Virus record (IMG/VR): IMGVR_UViG_3300033141_004983 | Coordinates: 1-40,970 of that record | DNA: 40,970 nucleotides | Source: a virus | Direction: 5' to 3' (one strand) | In this document: positions 5,303 to 40,970 of the stretch, in pieces | Layout: each line of letters starts with the position of its first letter | Numbering within the stretch: position 1 is the first letter of the stretch | Notes under the pieces: model-generated | The model's input: the letters and a program-made list of their open reading frames with translations, nothing else | What the model was told of the DNA's origin: nothing | Database searches by the model: none | Made by a program: the position numbers and the translations under genes

Positions 5303-5795
5303 CTTCCACATCCTCAGCTTCAATTTTTGGCACAGGCAAACCTCTTTTTTTCATTTCTTCTTCTGGGGAAGTATTATTGTTTTGTATTACTACTGTGGCA
5401 GGGGCATCATCTTTGATACCATAAACATTTGAGGAAAGTAATTTGATTAAACCATTATTGACTTCAGCAGTTGGAGAGAAAGCGTGTTTGGCTATTCTAT
5501 CACGCCATTTCATTTTGCCAATTTCCATACCAGAGACTACTGCTTCATTGAACTCAGGGAATTTTTTCATCCATCGCAGTAAAGTGTCTTTTGAACATTG
5601 AAGGGCGCTGCATAGATGAGATTTGGTTTTAGCAGTATCTGATTCTGATAATAATTTATAAACAATTTCAGCATATTCAATTTTATATGCATATGAACCA
5701 AATCTTCTATTTCTGTTCCTATCAATTGGACCAATTAATGGTTCTTGACTTTTGTAATCTATTAATGGTTTATTTTTTTTCTTTTTTTTAGTCAT
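5295..5795 (-). CDS. terS: Terminase small subunit
   Basis: A 166-residue DNA-recognition subunit of the packaging machine. After a lysine-rich N terminus it has a helix-turn-helix, AKTKSHLCSALQCSKDTLLR (about residues 55-74), followed by WMKKFPEFNEAV, the usual pattern of small terminases in which the HTH is followed by a Trp and an acidic helix, then an oligomerisation segment (KMKWRDRIAKHAF) and an acidic tail EAEDVEDE for contact with the large subunit. It heads the minus-strand packaging and head block. ATG at 5795 has TAAGGA upstream. A copy of the AAGCTTTACTT motif lies just 5' of it (see 5807-5833). Confidence 0.82.
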   Translation of the reverse strand: MTKKKKKNKPLIDYKSQEPLIGPIDRNRNRRFGSYAYKIEYAEIVYKLLSESDTAKTKSHLCSALQCSKDTLLRWMKKFPEFNEAVVSGMEIGKMKWRDRIAKHAFSPTAEVNNGLIKLLSSNVYGIKDDAPATVVIQNNNTSPEEEMKKRGLPVPKIEAEDVEDE

Positions 5796-5806: not shown

Positions 5807-5833
5807 ACTATACTTTAATAAAGAAGTAAAGCT
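5807..5833 (-). promoter_or_regulatory. AAGCTTTACTT motif upstream of terS
   Basis: On the minus strand the sequence AAGCTTTACTTC is followed 13 nt after CTTTAC by TATAGT, immediately before the terS ribosome binding site. The 11-base core is the same as in the three early promoter candidates at 8722, 9067 and 9934, but the spacing to a -10-like box is 13 nt instead of 18 and the putative start would fall on the binding site. It may therefore be an operator-like copy or a divergent promoter rather than the same promoter type. Confidence 0.35.
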
Positions 5834-5863
5834 TTTTTTATTGTTTCTTTAACTTTCTTTAAT

Positions 5864-6154
5864 TTACATTAATTTCAATCTTTTTCTTACTTCTTTTAAT
5901 TCGCATCCTGGACAACTTTCTCCGCTTGGAATATGAATCTTACATTTACTACAATATCGCATGTCATCATCATTTTCAATATGATACTCTTCACAGCTTG
6001 GTAAATCAGTATAGATATTAAAATTAAACCTACCAGAATCAACTCCACACTCCATTTTATCTACTGATCCATCTTCAGTAATAATTCTAACATCATAATC
6101 ATCTTGTAATCTAAGAGCTTCATTTATACTGTTTTTTATTTCTGTTAATTTCAT
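5864..6154 (-). CDS. Small zinc-ribbon-like protein, unknown role
   Basis: A 96-residue protein whose C-terminal part carries four cysteines in two pairs, YCSKCKIH then CPGCELKEVRKRLKLM, spaced like a zinc ribbon, followed by a basic tail suitable for nucleic acid binding. The N-terminal half is an acidic alpha/beta stretch (EDGSVDKMECGVDSG) with a further CEEYH. ATG at 6154 with an AAAGGAG site 5 nt upstream. It lies directly downstream of the origin-like region and upstream of the small terminase. A transcription or packaging accessory role is possible; no family is recognised. Confidence 0.75.
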   Translation of the reverse strand: MKLTEIKNSINEALRLQDDYDVRIITEDGSVDKMECGVDSGRFNFNIYTDLPSCEEYHIENDDDMRYCSKCKIHIPSGESCPGCELKEVRKRLKLM

Positions 6155-6607
6155 TATTTCTCCTTTTCTCCTTTTAATTCATTTTTACTTTAAAAAAAAC
6201 AATACCAGGAATTTTCCTTCTTTTTTCTTATATCTGAAACAGTAATAATTTTTCGTTGTTTTTTTTGGCTGAGGTAATATTTTTTTTTACCCTTTTTTAT
6301 TAATTATTTCTTATACTTATAAAAATAAAAAAGGTAAAATATTACTATTACTTTACCTATACCCGAATAAAGTAATATTCGGTAGTATAGAGATTGGCTT
6401 TTTATAAAAGTAATATTACCTATAATATAGTAATAATATTAATAACTTAACAGCTATTTTTACTGTTGATTATTACTGTTTTATTACTGTTTTATTACTG
6501 TCATTTTTTTCTAATCTCTGTTCCAATAAATTCAGGTACTTACAACTAAGGAATTAATTTTAAGCTTATTCAGCTATTTTATCCAATAAATCAAGCAGTT
6601 TAACTGC
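6155..6607. other. AT-rich non-coding region, candidate replication origin
   Basis: About 450 bp without a convincing gene. It holds three direct copies of TTATTACTGT at 6470, 6481 and 6492, an exact 11-bp period (one helical turn), a related TTTTTACTGT at 6457, and the reverse complement ACAGTAATAA at 6239. It also holds an inverted repeat CCGAATA/TATTCGG (6363-6369 and 6376-6382), an inverted repeat GGTAAA/TTTACC (6333-6338 and 6352-6357), the palindrome GTAATATTAC (6410-6419) and long T runs. Together with its place beside the primase-helicase gene, this is the usual look of an iteron-type origin. The part nearest 6155 is the leader of the zinc-ribbon gene and may carry its promoter. Confidence 0.5.
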
Positions 6608-8476
6608 TCATTGTTCTATTTCTATACTTTTTAATAGGTCGAAAGCTAATATTTTACCAGTTTTATCCATTACTCCATTTTTAATAGCTTTCTTTTTTAT
6701 GGTACTTATTCTGCCTTGTGTTAACCCTGTTAGCTTTGCTATTGATTCCTGTGTTATCCCTTCATGGAGTAGTTCTAATATTTTTTGATTTTGACCACTC
6801 TTTTTAAATTCCCATTTACCATCAATCAACTTTACTTCTATATTTGTAATAGTAGATGGGTCTTTTATATCCATTCTGGTTTTAGTAAATTTTATTTCCA
6901 TCCTTGCTTTATCTTCTGGCCGATAATTTTTTGGCTTAGTAAGGACTAAATTGACATCAATATTATCTTCTCTGGCTGAAGTGCCTCTGCCTCCACTATT
7001 TAAATCTTTTCCCATATGGTGAATTAATATAGAAGTAATACCAGAATGCTTTAACTGGATCATCCATTGGTTAATTGGGTCCCATTCATCTTTTACATTT
7101 TCATTTAATCCTGAAGCTAAACAAGAAACATTATCAAATACTACTATTTTGGTATCTGTTTCTATTAATTTATTTTTGAACCATTCTCTATACTCTTCAT
7201 TGACTAAATTGGCAACTACTCCACCATCAATCCCTGTTTGGTGATTACATATTAAAGTAAAATGTTTTTCTTCATTTAATTTTAAAAGTTTCATCCTTTT
7301 CTGATTATCATATCTGCCCATTTCTCCATCAACATATACTACATTTGTTTTATTTTTTACTTCCCATGGGCCAAATTTTTCACCAGAAGTAATAGCTTGA
7401 GACAGACCATAAGCAAACCAACTCTTTCCAACACCTCTTTCACCTACTATTAATATCACATTTTCTTCTACTACCCAGGGTGATAGATATTCTTTGGGGA
7501 TAGGAAAATCCATCTTACAAAATTCTTCAGCTGTATAACCCCAACTTTTTTCCCAGTCACCATCAAGTTCTTTTTTATCCTTTTTATATATATTATTTAC
7601 ATCTCGAATCATATCACTGTAGTATCTCTTATGATAATCATCTTGTGGCCAATTATGTATAAATCCTCTGAGGTTTGCTAATACTGTAGCCTTTGATACT
7701 CCATCTTTCTTCTGGCCTGATATATACTTAGTCATGGCGATATGGACACCTGTATCTGGTTTACCACCCATGATAATAAGAACCATATCATCCATAGTTA
7801 TAGCATCATCATCTAAATTAACAAGATTACCTTCAGCAATAGACTCAGCCTCAGAAGCAGTAAAATCATCTCCTTTATAATAGCTATAAAATTCAAATTT
7901 GCCATCATCAGGATTATCACGAGTAGGTAGGAACCAAGGAACAGACCAAGTTTTAGACTCAGTTGCCATAGCCAAATCTGCACAACTATTTTTAGAAATA
8001 AGCTCATAAAGATTTACTACAGATGGGGCAAGTTGTCCAATCTCTTTCATTTTACAAGGCAGTAAAACTCGCCATCTAATTTTGTCTGGGTGGTCTTTAG
8101 TTCTATGGGAGTGAGTAGTATAAATACAATGATTTAGATTTTTCTCTTTTAAGACTTGATGGACTAAGCTGGGTTCAATACAATATCCTGCTTTACTTTT
8201 GGAATTATCTCCATCAAAAGGAATCATTCCAGCGGATATTTGGGAAGAATTATTGCGGTGATAATGGTCTTTATATTTATAGCTTTTAAAATGAGCAGTT
8301 GGATCACCTTTAGTAATTTTATATTCATTACCAATAGTGATATAGCCTTCAAATTTACTACCAGCTGAACACTTTTTTAAAGCCTTTTTGCAGAAGTCTT
8401 CAAAATCGAAAAATTGATATTTTTTTAGCTCCGCTGTTGGGGCGTTTTTATAGCTTTGACCTTTGAAAATATTCAT
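6608..8476 (-). CDS. Primase-helicase: PrimPol-like N terminus, RecA-like ATPase, C-terminal HTH
   Basis: A 622-residue replication protein. The N-terminal region has the archaeo-eukaryotic primase type motifs IPFDGD (residues 85-90), YTTHSH (119-124) and IRWRVLLP (133-140), consistent with an AEP/PrimPol active site. A RecA/RepA-like ATPase follows with Walker A GERGVGKS (345-352), Walker B KIVVFDN (D448) and the LIHHMGKD sensor segment. The last 60 residues contain a helix-turn-helix (QESIAKLTGLTQGRISTIKK). It probably unwinds and primes phage DNA, and the HTH could bind the origin-like repeats just downstream. ATG at 8476 has AAGGAAGG 8 nt upstream. It is the only replication gene on the minus strand. 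The primase assignment is from motifs by eye. Confidence 0.8.
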   Translation of the reverse strand: MNIFKGQSYKNAPTAELKKYQFFDFEDFCKKALKKCSAGSKFEGYITIGNEYKITKGDPTAHFKSYKYKDHYHRNNSSQISAGMIPFDGDNSKSKAGYCIEPSLVHQVLKEKNLNHCIYTTHSHRTKDHPDKIRWRVLLPCKMKEIGQLAPSVVNLYELISKNSCADLAMATESKTWSVPWFLPTRDNPDDGKFEFYSYYKGDDFTASEAESIAEGNLVNLDDDAITMDDMVLIIMGGKPDTGVHIAMTKYISGQKKDGVSKATVLANLRGFIHNWPQDDYHKRYYSDMIRDVNNIYKKDKKELDGDWEKSWGYTAEEFCKMDFPIPKEYLSPWVVEENVILIVGERGVGKSWFAYGLSQAITSGEKFGPWEVKNKTNVVYVDGEMGRYDNQKRMKLLKLNEEKHFTLICNHQTGIDGGVVANLVNEEYREWFKNKLIETDTKIVVFDNVSCLASGLNENVKDEWDPINQWMIQLKHSGITSILIHHMGKDLNSGGRGTSAREDNIDVNLVLTKPKNYRPEDKARMEIKFTKTRMDIKDPSTITNIEVKLIDGKWEFKKSGQNQKILELLHEGITQESIAKLTGLTQGRISTIKKKAIKNGVMDKTGKILAFDLLKSIEIEQ

Positions 8477-8679: not shown

Positions 8680-8721
8680 TTTTATCTCCTTAATTTAGGT
8701 TAAAATTTTGAATAAAGGCTA

Positions 8722-8751
8722 TATATAACTTATAATAAAACCGAAGTAAAG
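8722..8751 (-). promoter_or_regulatory. Promoter candidate for the leftward primase operon
   Basis: On the minus strand CTTTAC (8751-8746) is followed by exactly 18 bp and then TATATA (8727-8722). The flanking core AAGCTTTACTT is shared with the plus-strand candidates at 9067 and 9934. The ribosome binding site and ATG of the HTH gene follow at 8692-8679, giving a leader of roughly 35 nt. Confidence 0.6.
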
Positions 8752-8859
8752 CTTTATTTTAATTTTTCATAATAAAATTAGCTGTTTATATAATAGCTTT
8801 TGATATCTTTTTCTAATATTCGGTATTTAATAGATAATCAGAAAAAATAGGCTTTGCCA

Positions 8860-8908
8860 GAGCTTGCATATTAAACTATCTCTCAAAGATCTGTACCTTA
8901 GTATGCTA
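8860..8908 (+). repeat. Dispersed element, copy 1
   Basis: Reads GAGCTTGCATATTAAAC, then 14 nt after ATATTAAA comes TCTGTACCTTAGTAT. It matches the other copies (10798, 11316, 23021, 35177) with one change in the core (TTAAA for TCAAA), and shares CCTTAGTAT with the 23021 copy. It lies 200 bp upstream of the first early gene. Confidence 0.55.
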
Positions 8909-9066
8909 TAAAATAGCCTTATATATAAGGTAGAAGATAAAACCGTACCAAAACCGGACATAAATAAGATAAAATGGAATATTTTACAATATTCAAAAAT
9001 AGTTAAAAAAGTTTATCAATGATTTCAATCACTTATGTTAAAAGTGAAAATAAATCAAAAATAAAG

Positions 9067-9096
9067 CTTTACTTATTGATAAAAAAGGCTTATTAT
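9067..9096 (+). promoter_or_regulatory. Early promoter candidate, rightward
   Basis: CTTTAC (9067-9072), an 18-bp spacer, then TATTAT (9091-9096), inside AAAGCTTTACTT. The first small early gene starts at 9146 with its own ribosome binding site. Same geometry as the candidates at 8722 (minus) and 9934 (plus). Confidence 0.6.
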
Positions 9097-9145
9097 ATAC
9101 TTAATGAAAACGAAAAAACAAATAAAAAACTTTAAAGGAGAAAAA

Positions 9146-10866: not shown

Positions 10867-10937
10867 CAAACTTTAAAGGAGAAAAATAAACCCAAACTTT
10901 AAAGGAGAAAAATAACCCCAAACAAAAAGGAGAAAAT
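10867..10937 (+). repeat. Three tandem ribosome-binding-site modules, 26-bp period
   Basis: CAAACTTTAAAGGAGAAAAA occurs at 10867 and 10893, and a shortened copy CAAACAAAAAGGAGAAAAT starts at 10919 and leads into the ATG at 10938. In the first two copies the place of ATG is taken by ATA. The result is three strong binding sites in a row upstream of one gene. Confidence 0.8.
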
Positions 10938-40191: not shown

Positions 40192-40970
40192 TTATGGTAC
40201 CTCAATTATAGGACTATAAGAACATCGACAATTAATATCTGTTATCCCAGGCTGGATAAACTTACCACAAGTTTTTGACCAGGCTCCTTTTTTAATTTCA
40301 AACTCAACTCCATCTAATTCATCATGACATTTTCTGACTCTTTCATCTTTGGATGTTCTATATATACCTTTTTTAATACCAAGGCTTTCACTTCTTCTTA
40401 AAGTAATTTGAGAATTAATAGTTTGTACTTCATTTCTTGCTATGGTTTTAATTCGATTAGCAAGCTTACTATTTGCTCCAGTTTTGGCAGTAATTTCTTT
40501 TGCTATTGTTTCATATCTTGCTCCGCTTACTACTCCATTATTGACAATAGTCTCAACTTGCTTTAAATATTCCAATAGTCTCAACTTGCTTTAAATATTC
40601 TTCAGGTAAAGACTTTATCAGACTCGCATTTTTATTTACACTCAATGCAGTAAAATCTTCAAGCCCTTCAGAAGTAATAATGCTACTCAAATCCACTCCT
40701 GTAGCTCTGGCAACGGTTTTATCAAATTTATTTTTATTAGCAGTACCTACTTTTTCAACCATATGAGAAGATGCTACCTGGGCAAAACTCGCTGTAGCAT
40801 TTCCAGTAAATAAACCATTTAGCCTTCTAAAGATAACTCCAAGTTGATCGCCAATCCCATCTCTTAATGGGGACTGACCAATTTTTTTATAAGAGGTTTT
40901 TAATAATCCATCAACATGTTCTTTATATTCATCCCATAATTCATATTCGCCATCCAGATTAAAACTATCA
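40192..40970 (-). CDS. Minor head protein (Mu gpF-like), C-terminal part, frame broken by a duplication
   Basis: Continues from the fragment at 1-314 through the join (QSPLRDGIGDQLGVIFRRLN is read across it). The gpF core is clear at the end: IARNEVQTINSQITLRRSES, GIYRTSKDERVRKCHDELDG and the QPGITDINCRCSYSPII tail. The frame shifts inside a 28-bp tandem duplication (40545-40600): the first part ends LPEEYLKQVETIGIFKAS at 40553 and the second begins in another frame with EYLKQVETIVNNG. With one repeat unit removed the protein is continuous and of usual length, about 320 residues. Confidence 0.88.
40545..40600. repeat. Perfect 28-bp tandem duplication in the minor head gene
   Basis: Bases 40545-40572 and 40573-40600 are identical (starting CAATAGTCTCAACTTGC). 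28 is not a multiple of three, so the second unit breaks the frame of an essential virion gene. The residue string EYLKQVETI appears in both frames. An assembly or replication slip is the likely origin. Confidence 0.95.
40857..40970. repeat. Terminal direct repeat, right copy (circular contig overlap)
   Basis: Exact copy of bases 1-114; see the left copy. Coding content is part of the minor head gene. Confidence 0.95.

Follow-up and report, generated by a model that had tools for sequence, protein, structure and literature searches.

The gene of a 622-aa helicase protein in an uncultured phage is followed by a gap of non-coding DNA dense in short repeats, and the question raised by this locus is what the repeats are for and which protein reads them. 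The phage is represented by the IMG/VR record IMGVR_UViG_3300033141_004983, a stretch of 40,970 nt that was analysed as a whole (the window). The gap at positions 6155-6607 is probably the replication origin of the phage, read by the HTH of the helicase protein encoded beside it, as judged from its sequence and from comparison with relatives. It is bordered by the 3' end of the helicase gene and by the gene of a 96-aa protein, after which come TerS and the structural genes, all of them on the minus strand. The features of the locus are:

5864-6154, minus strand: conserved 96-aa protein, function unassigned, across the gap from the helicase gene
6155-6607 (453 bp), no strand: AT-rich, non-coding gap with the motif cluster, a predicted origin (motif density, stability and ORF scan)
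6238-6249, plus strand: single copy, AACAGTAATAAT, opposite in orientation to the array and separated from it by the AT-rich core
6274-6351, no strand: inverted repeat (6274-6301 and 6324-6351) flanking the AT-rich core, with GGTAATATT and AGTAATAGTAATATT sites
6357-6390, no strand: hairpin of 13 pairs with a 2-nt bulge and an AGTAA site in the loop
6406-6437, no strand: palindrome AGTAATATTACC and another AGTAATA site
6457-6501, minus strand: tandem array of three exact 11-bp units (CAGTAATAAAA on the minus strand) and one degenerate unit
6592-6610, minus strand: terminator-like hairpin at the helicase gene stop codon
6608-8476, minus strand: 622-aa helicase protein with an N-terminal domain (family unassigned, putative primase), an AAA_25 ATPase (residues 323-491) and a C-terminal HTH (about 562-600); proposed initiator

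The initial annotation described the gap as AT-rich and non-coding, which holds: its GC content is 22%, no ORF in it reaches 60 aa, and duplex stability over 200 bp and over 400 bp is lower here than anywhere else in the window. Three copies of TTATTACTGT at an 11-bp period and a reverse copy at 6239-6248 had also been reported, and all four are exact. The tandem copies start at 6470, 6481 and 6492 (6470-6501), and a fourth, degenerate unit, TTTTTACTGT, is located at 6457. The two-unit 21-bp pattern, allowing up to 3 mismatches, matches the window only at the array (0.00 matches expected), and none of 1000 dinucleotide-shuffled versions of the gap reached its longest run with an 11-bp period, 21 bases. 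The total number of repeats given earlier was too low, however, as the underlying unit is AGTAATA, which occurs nine times on the two strands of the 453-bp gap (shuffle maximum 7). An unbiased scan of short words over all 41 kb ranks the gap as the top cluster (z = 10.3), a 453-bp span there containing as many as ten copies, versus two to five nearly everywhere else. The inverted repeats and the palindrome that had been noted between the repeat copies are real (6274-6301/6324-6351, 6357-6369/6376-6390 and 6410-6419). The second pair forms the arms of the hairpin, which features the loop AAGTAA, and the palindrome at 6410-6419 is GTAATATTAC. Folding of the region as single-stranded DNA gave z = -4.9. 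The array lies on one side of the AT-rich core and the single inverted copy on the other, with further sites between them.

The 622-aa protein had been annotated as a primase-helicase with a C-terminal HTH. The helicase ATPase core and the HTH are supported, while a primase was confirmed by no library. The helicase core matches the AAA_25 family and is a RecA/KaiC-like ATPase. The AlphaFold model of the full-length protein is poor (mean pLDDT 38.8), and that of the helicase-HTH part folded separately is still low in confidence (mean pLDDT 49.4), with structural matches to the KaiC fold that are supporting only. The HTH at about 562-600 consists of three predicted helices with a pLDDT of about 65-80 and has weak family matches below the curated cut-offs. 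The N-terminal domain has no match in Pfam or the PDB; it features conserved DGD and HSH...RWR residues that look AEP-like by eye, and it may act as a primase. This conserved domain possibly represents an undescribed primase family.

One close relative, L002, was found in IMG/VR, with a helicase protein that is 67% identical. The matching gap in L002 features a different word, AAAGTTTCC, which occurs nine times, three of them at 11-bp spacing, and all nine copies of its 13.8-kb locus are inside the gap. The DNA identity between the window and L002 falls from ~87% to 65% at a sharp break within the helicase gene near 7600 and is ~50% in the gap. At the protein level the N-terminal domain is 84% identical, the helicase 54%, and the HTH, which is the most divergent part, 38%. 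The divergent block also takes in the 96-aa protein and TerS, and therefore the HTH cannot be identified as the reader from co-divergence alone. The different words at the matching place agree with a replication start site and a reader protein that change together.

More distant relatives feature still other words. Those found through TerS (L014, L006 and L016) have a D5-like replicase and a family of interrelated words (ATAGGTT, TTAGGTT and TTAGGGTT) at 9-10 bp spacing, although the cluster is statistically weak in L006 and L016. Among the relatives found through the N-terminal domain, L018 and L031 have a AAGTAGTAA cluster immediately 3' of the replicase gene, and L029 has a AATCTGGG cluster 3' of this gene; in L018 and L029 the N-terminal domain is homologous and the helicase half is different. 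The clusters of GTTATG (L028, two clusters), AAATACG (L026) and AGAGTAA (L027) are upstream of the replicase gene. The words are near-exclusive to their own gap, each relative's gap having at most 1-2 copies of another's word, and the motif follows the replicase type, not TerS. The claim that an origin-type region is tied to the neighbouring replication protein thus gains support from the L002 layout with its different word, the replicase-specific motifs, the lack of a cluster at TerS relatives that have no replicase, and the divergence of the HTH in step with the repeats. The N-terminal part (residues 1-215) is common to phage replicases with different helicase halves (L018 and L025-L032). 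In L028 the two GTTATG clusters are on one contig at 1541-1890 and 4411-4760 with 11 and 12 copies, a layout that recalls P4 ori and crr, and the second cluster is separated from the replicase by two homing-endonuclease-like ORFs. The sole IMG/VR match to the exact double unit, in L009, is on an unrelated contig with no replicase alongside and was treated as a chance match. A scan of genome contigs found no relative, and the plasmid collection gave one weak match to plasmid replication proteins and none to RSF1010-type replication proteins.

The same comparisons bear on the other proteins that might bind the repeats. The repeats could mark a packaging initiation (pac/cos) site for TerS, whose gene is two genes downstream. 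The gap is close upstream of TerS in the window, L002, L006, L014 and L016, the N-terminal part of TerS is HTH-like, and the contig terminates within the MuF gene, which is compatible with a circularly permuted map. A packaging site is nevertheless quite unlikely. Similarity between TerS proteins does not predict the motif, and no cluster is seen in TerS relatives that lack a replicase next door, both of which speak against TerS as the binder. The TerS of L014 is nearer to those of the window (58%) and L002 (57%) than to those of L006 (50%) or L016 (49%), but the L014 motif resembles the motifs of L006 and L016, whose replicase L014 shares. The TerS relatives L012 (59%) and L017 feature no cluster upstream of TerS, and the L018 cluster adjoins the replicase, its only TerS being a distant one that is four genes, or ~2.4 kb, away. 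Operators for a transcription regulator of the 96-aa gene and the late operon are an unlikely function of the repeats as well. The late operon starts directly downstream of the gap, the helical-turn spacing suits cooperative regulators, and the helicase gene closes with the terminator-like hairpin, but the gap region has no promoter excess. In addition, another conserved element, AAATAAAGCTTTACTT, stands in front of three transcription units in both L002 and the window but does not occur in the gap, making a general promoter role of the repeats less plausible. The 58-aa HTH regulator encoded upstream is 81% identical in the window and L002 though their repeats are unrelated, and one such protein is unlikely to read two unrelated words. 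Among TerS, the 58-aa HTH protein and the HTH of the helicase protein, the last is the best candidate for the binder.

Binding by the helicase protein could also serve a different purpose. Besides ori, phage P4 carries crr as a second site, and the cluster could similarly act in incompatibility or copy control. Replication would then start elsewhere, e.g. in the divergent gap at 8680-9103, where the skew has its minimum. This divergent gap is AT-rich too, and the skew minimum is near 8.5-9 kb. A GC-skew change at ~6.4 kb, proposed earlier as a check, was not found, the sign change being at 8.5-9 kb; the skew follows gene orientation and was therefore dropped as evidence for an origin. In neither the window nor L002 does the divergent gap feature a strong motif cluster, and this alternative to the origin reading is highly unlikely. 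Further points against the origin reading of the cluster are the upstream position of the clusters in L026-L028 and the lack of a cluster in L032 or in the gap beside the gene in more distant INPHARED phages with related proteins (Gordonia, Roseobacter CRP-810, Cronobacter Ss1 and Vibrio RY-3).

If replication starts within 6155-6607, the HTH at the C-terminus of the 622-aa protein would bind the AGTAATA sites, namely the three-unit array with its 11-bp spacing of one helical turn on one side, the inverted copy on the other side and the hairpin sites between them. Binding to these sites would load the RecA-like helicase, and the very AT-rich core would then melt. The exposed hairpins may be the places where priming starts, either by the N-terminal domain of the protein itself or by another primase.

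Comparable systems have been described. In the rep-ori of SaPI/PICI and SCCmec Cch2, the iteron origin is located directly downstream of the initiator helicase gene and is read by the C-terminal domain; the SaPI/PICI initiator helicase is sometimes fused to a primase, and PICI origins feature an AT-rich region between two iteron sets (PMC7581432, PMC6092414). The window likewise features iterons in non-coding DNA directly downstream of the helicase gene and a DNA-binding domain, the predicted HTH, at the C-terminus of the helicase protein. However, SaPI/PICI helicases are of the DUF927 or D5 type (AAA+/SF3), neither of which was found in the window protein, where the helicase is RecA/KaiC-like AAA_25; the iteron word and the 11-bp spacing also differ, and the host element is a tailed phage, not a satellite. 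The helicase of P4 belongs to SF3. The P4 alpha protein is a single polypeptide that primes, unwinds and binds the origin repeats through a winged-helix domain, and its primase is of the Toprim type (PMC4234260). The 622-aa protein differs from it in that neither a Toprim/zinc primase domain nor an SF3 helicase was matched. RSF1010 has iterons of 20 bp. At its oriV, RepC recognises the iterons, RepA is the helicase, and priming occurs at stem-loops (PMC4234260). The gap resembles this oriV in its iterons and hairpins, whereas RSF1010 uses three separate proteins (RepA, RepB' and RepC) and the window features one fused protein and 11-bp units. ORF904 of pRN1 and the BIP-1 phage replication protein consist of an archaeo-eukaryotic primase, an SF3 helicase and a winged helix, with an origin immediately downstream of the gene that is proposed to be one long stem-loop without iterons (PMC4234260). 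The best reading is that the window system would work like those of SaPI/PICI, P4 alpha and RSF1010, but would be placed outside the SaPI and P4 families because its helicase core is RecA-like and not SF3.

A more tentative proposal is that related uncultured phages swap cassettes of origin and initiator, each cassette having an orthogonal iteron word of its own, and that at least three helicase types are represented among them. The initiator of the window would then be a single-polypeptide form of the RSF1010 scheme (primase-like domain, RecA-like helicase and HTH) acting on 11-bp iterons and hairpins. The matched sets of initiator and predicted origin differ in sequence and share the same layout, which makes initiator-origin specificity and its evolution directly testable by means of short DNA arrays and small protein domains. 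The predicted initiator of the window would also bring a RecA-like helicase into a kind of fused initiator that has been described mostly with SF3 helicases.

Other repeats were observed elsewhere in the window. The AAATAAAGCTTTACTT element is located at 5823-5840, 8743-8760 and 9057-9075 of the window and at 5720-5736 and 8430-8447 of L002, in one orientation throughout. In both phages it sits before TerS, the HTH/helicase operon and the early operon, it is unchanged where the iterons differ, and it is likely a phage-specific promoter or operator. At 40545-40600, near the contig end, an exact 28-bp tandem duplication splits the MuF-like head gene, which is intact in the relative L005, into two frames; this duplication is either a real mutation or an assembly artefact. 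A 26-bp repeat of 2.7 copies at 10867-10936 is located just upstream of a DUF7173 protein and includes the ribosome-binding-site-like AAAGGAGAAA.
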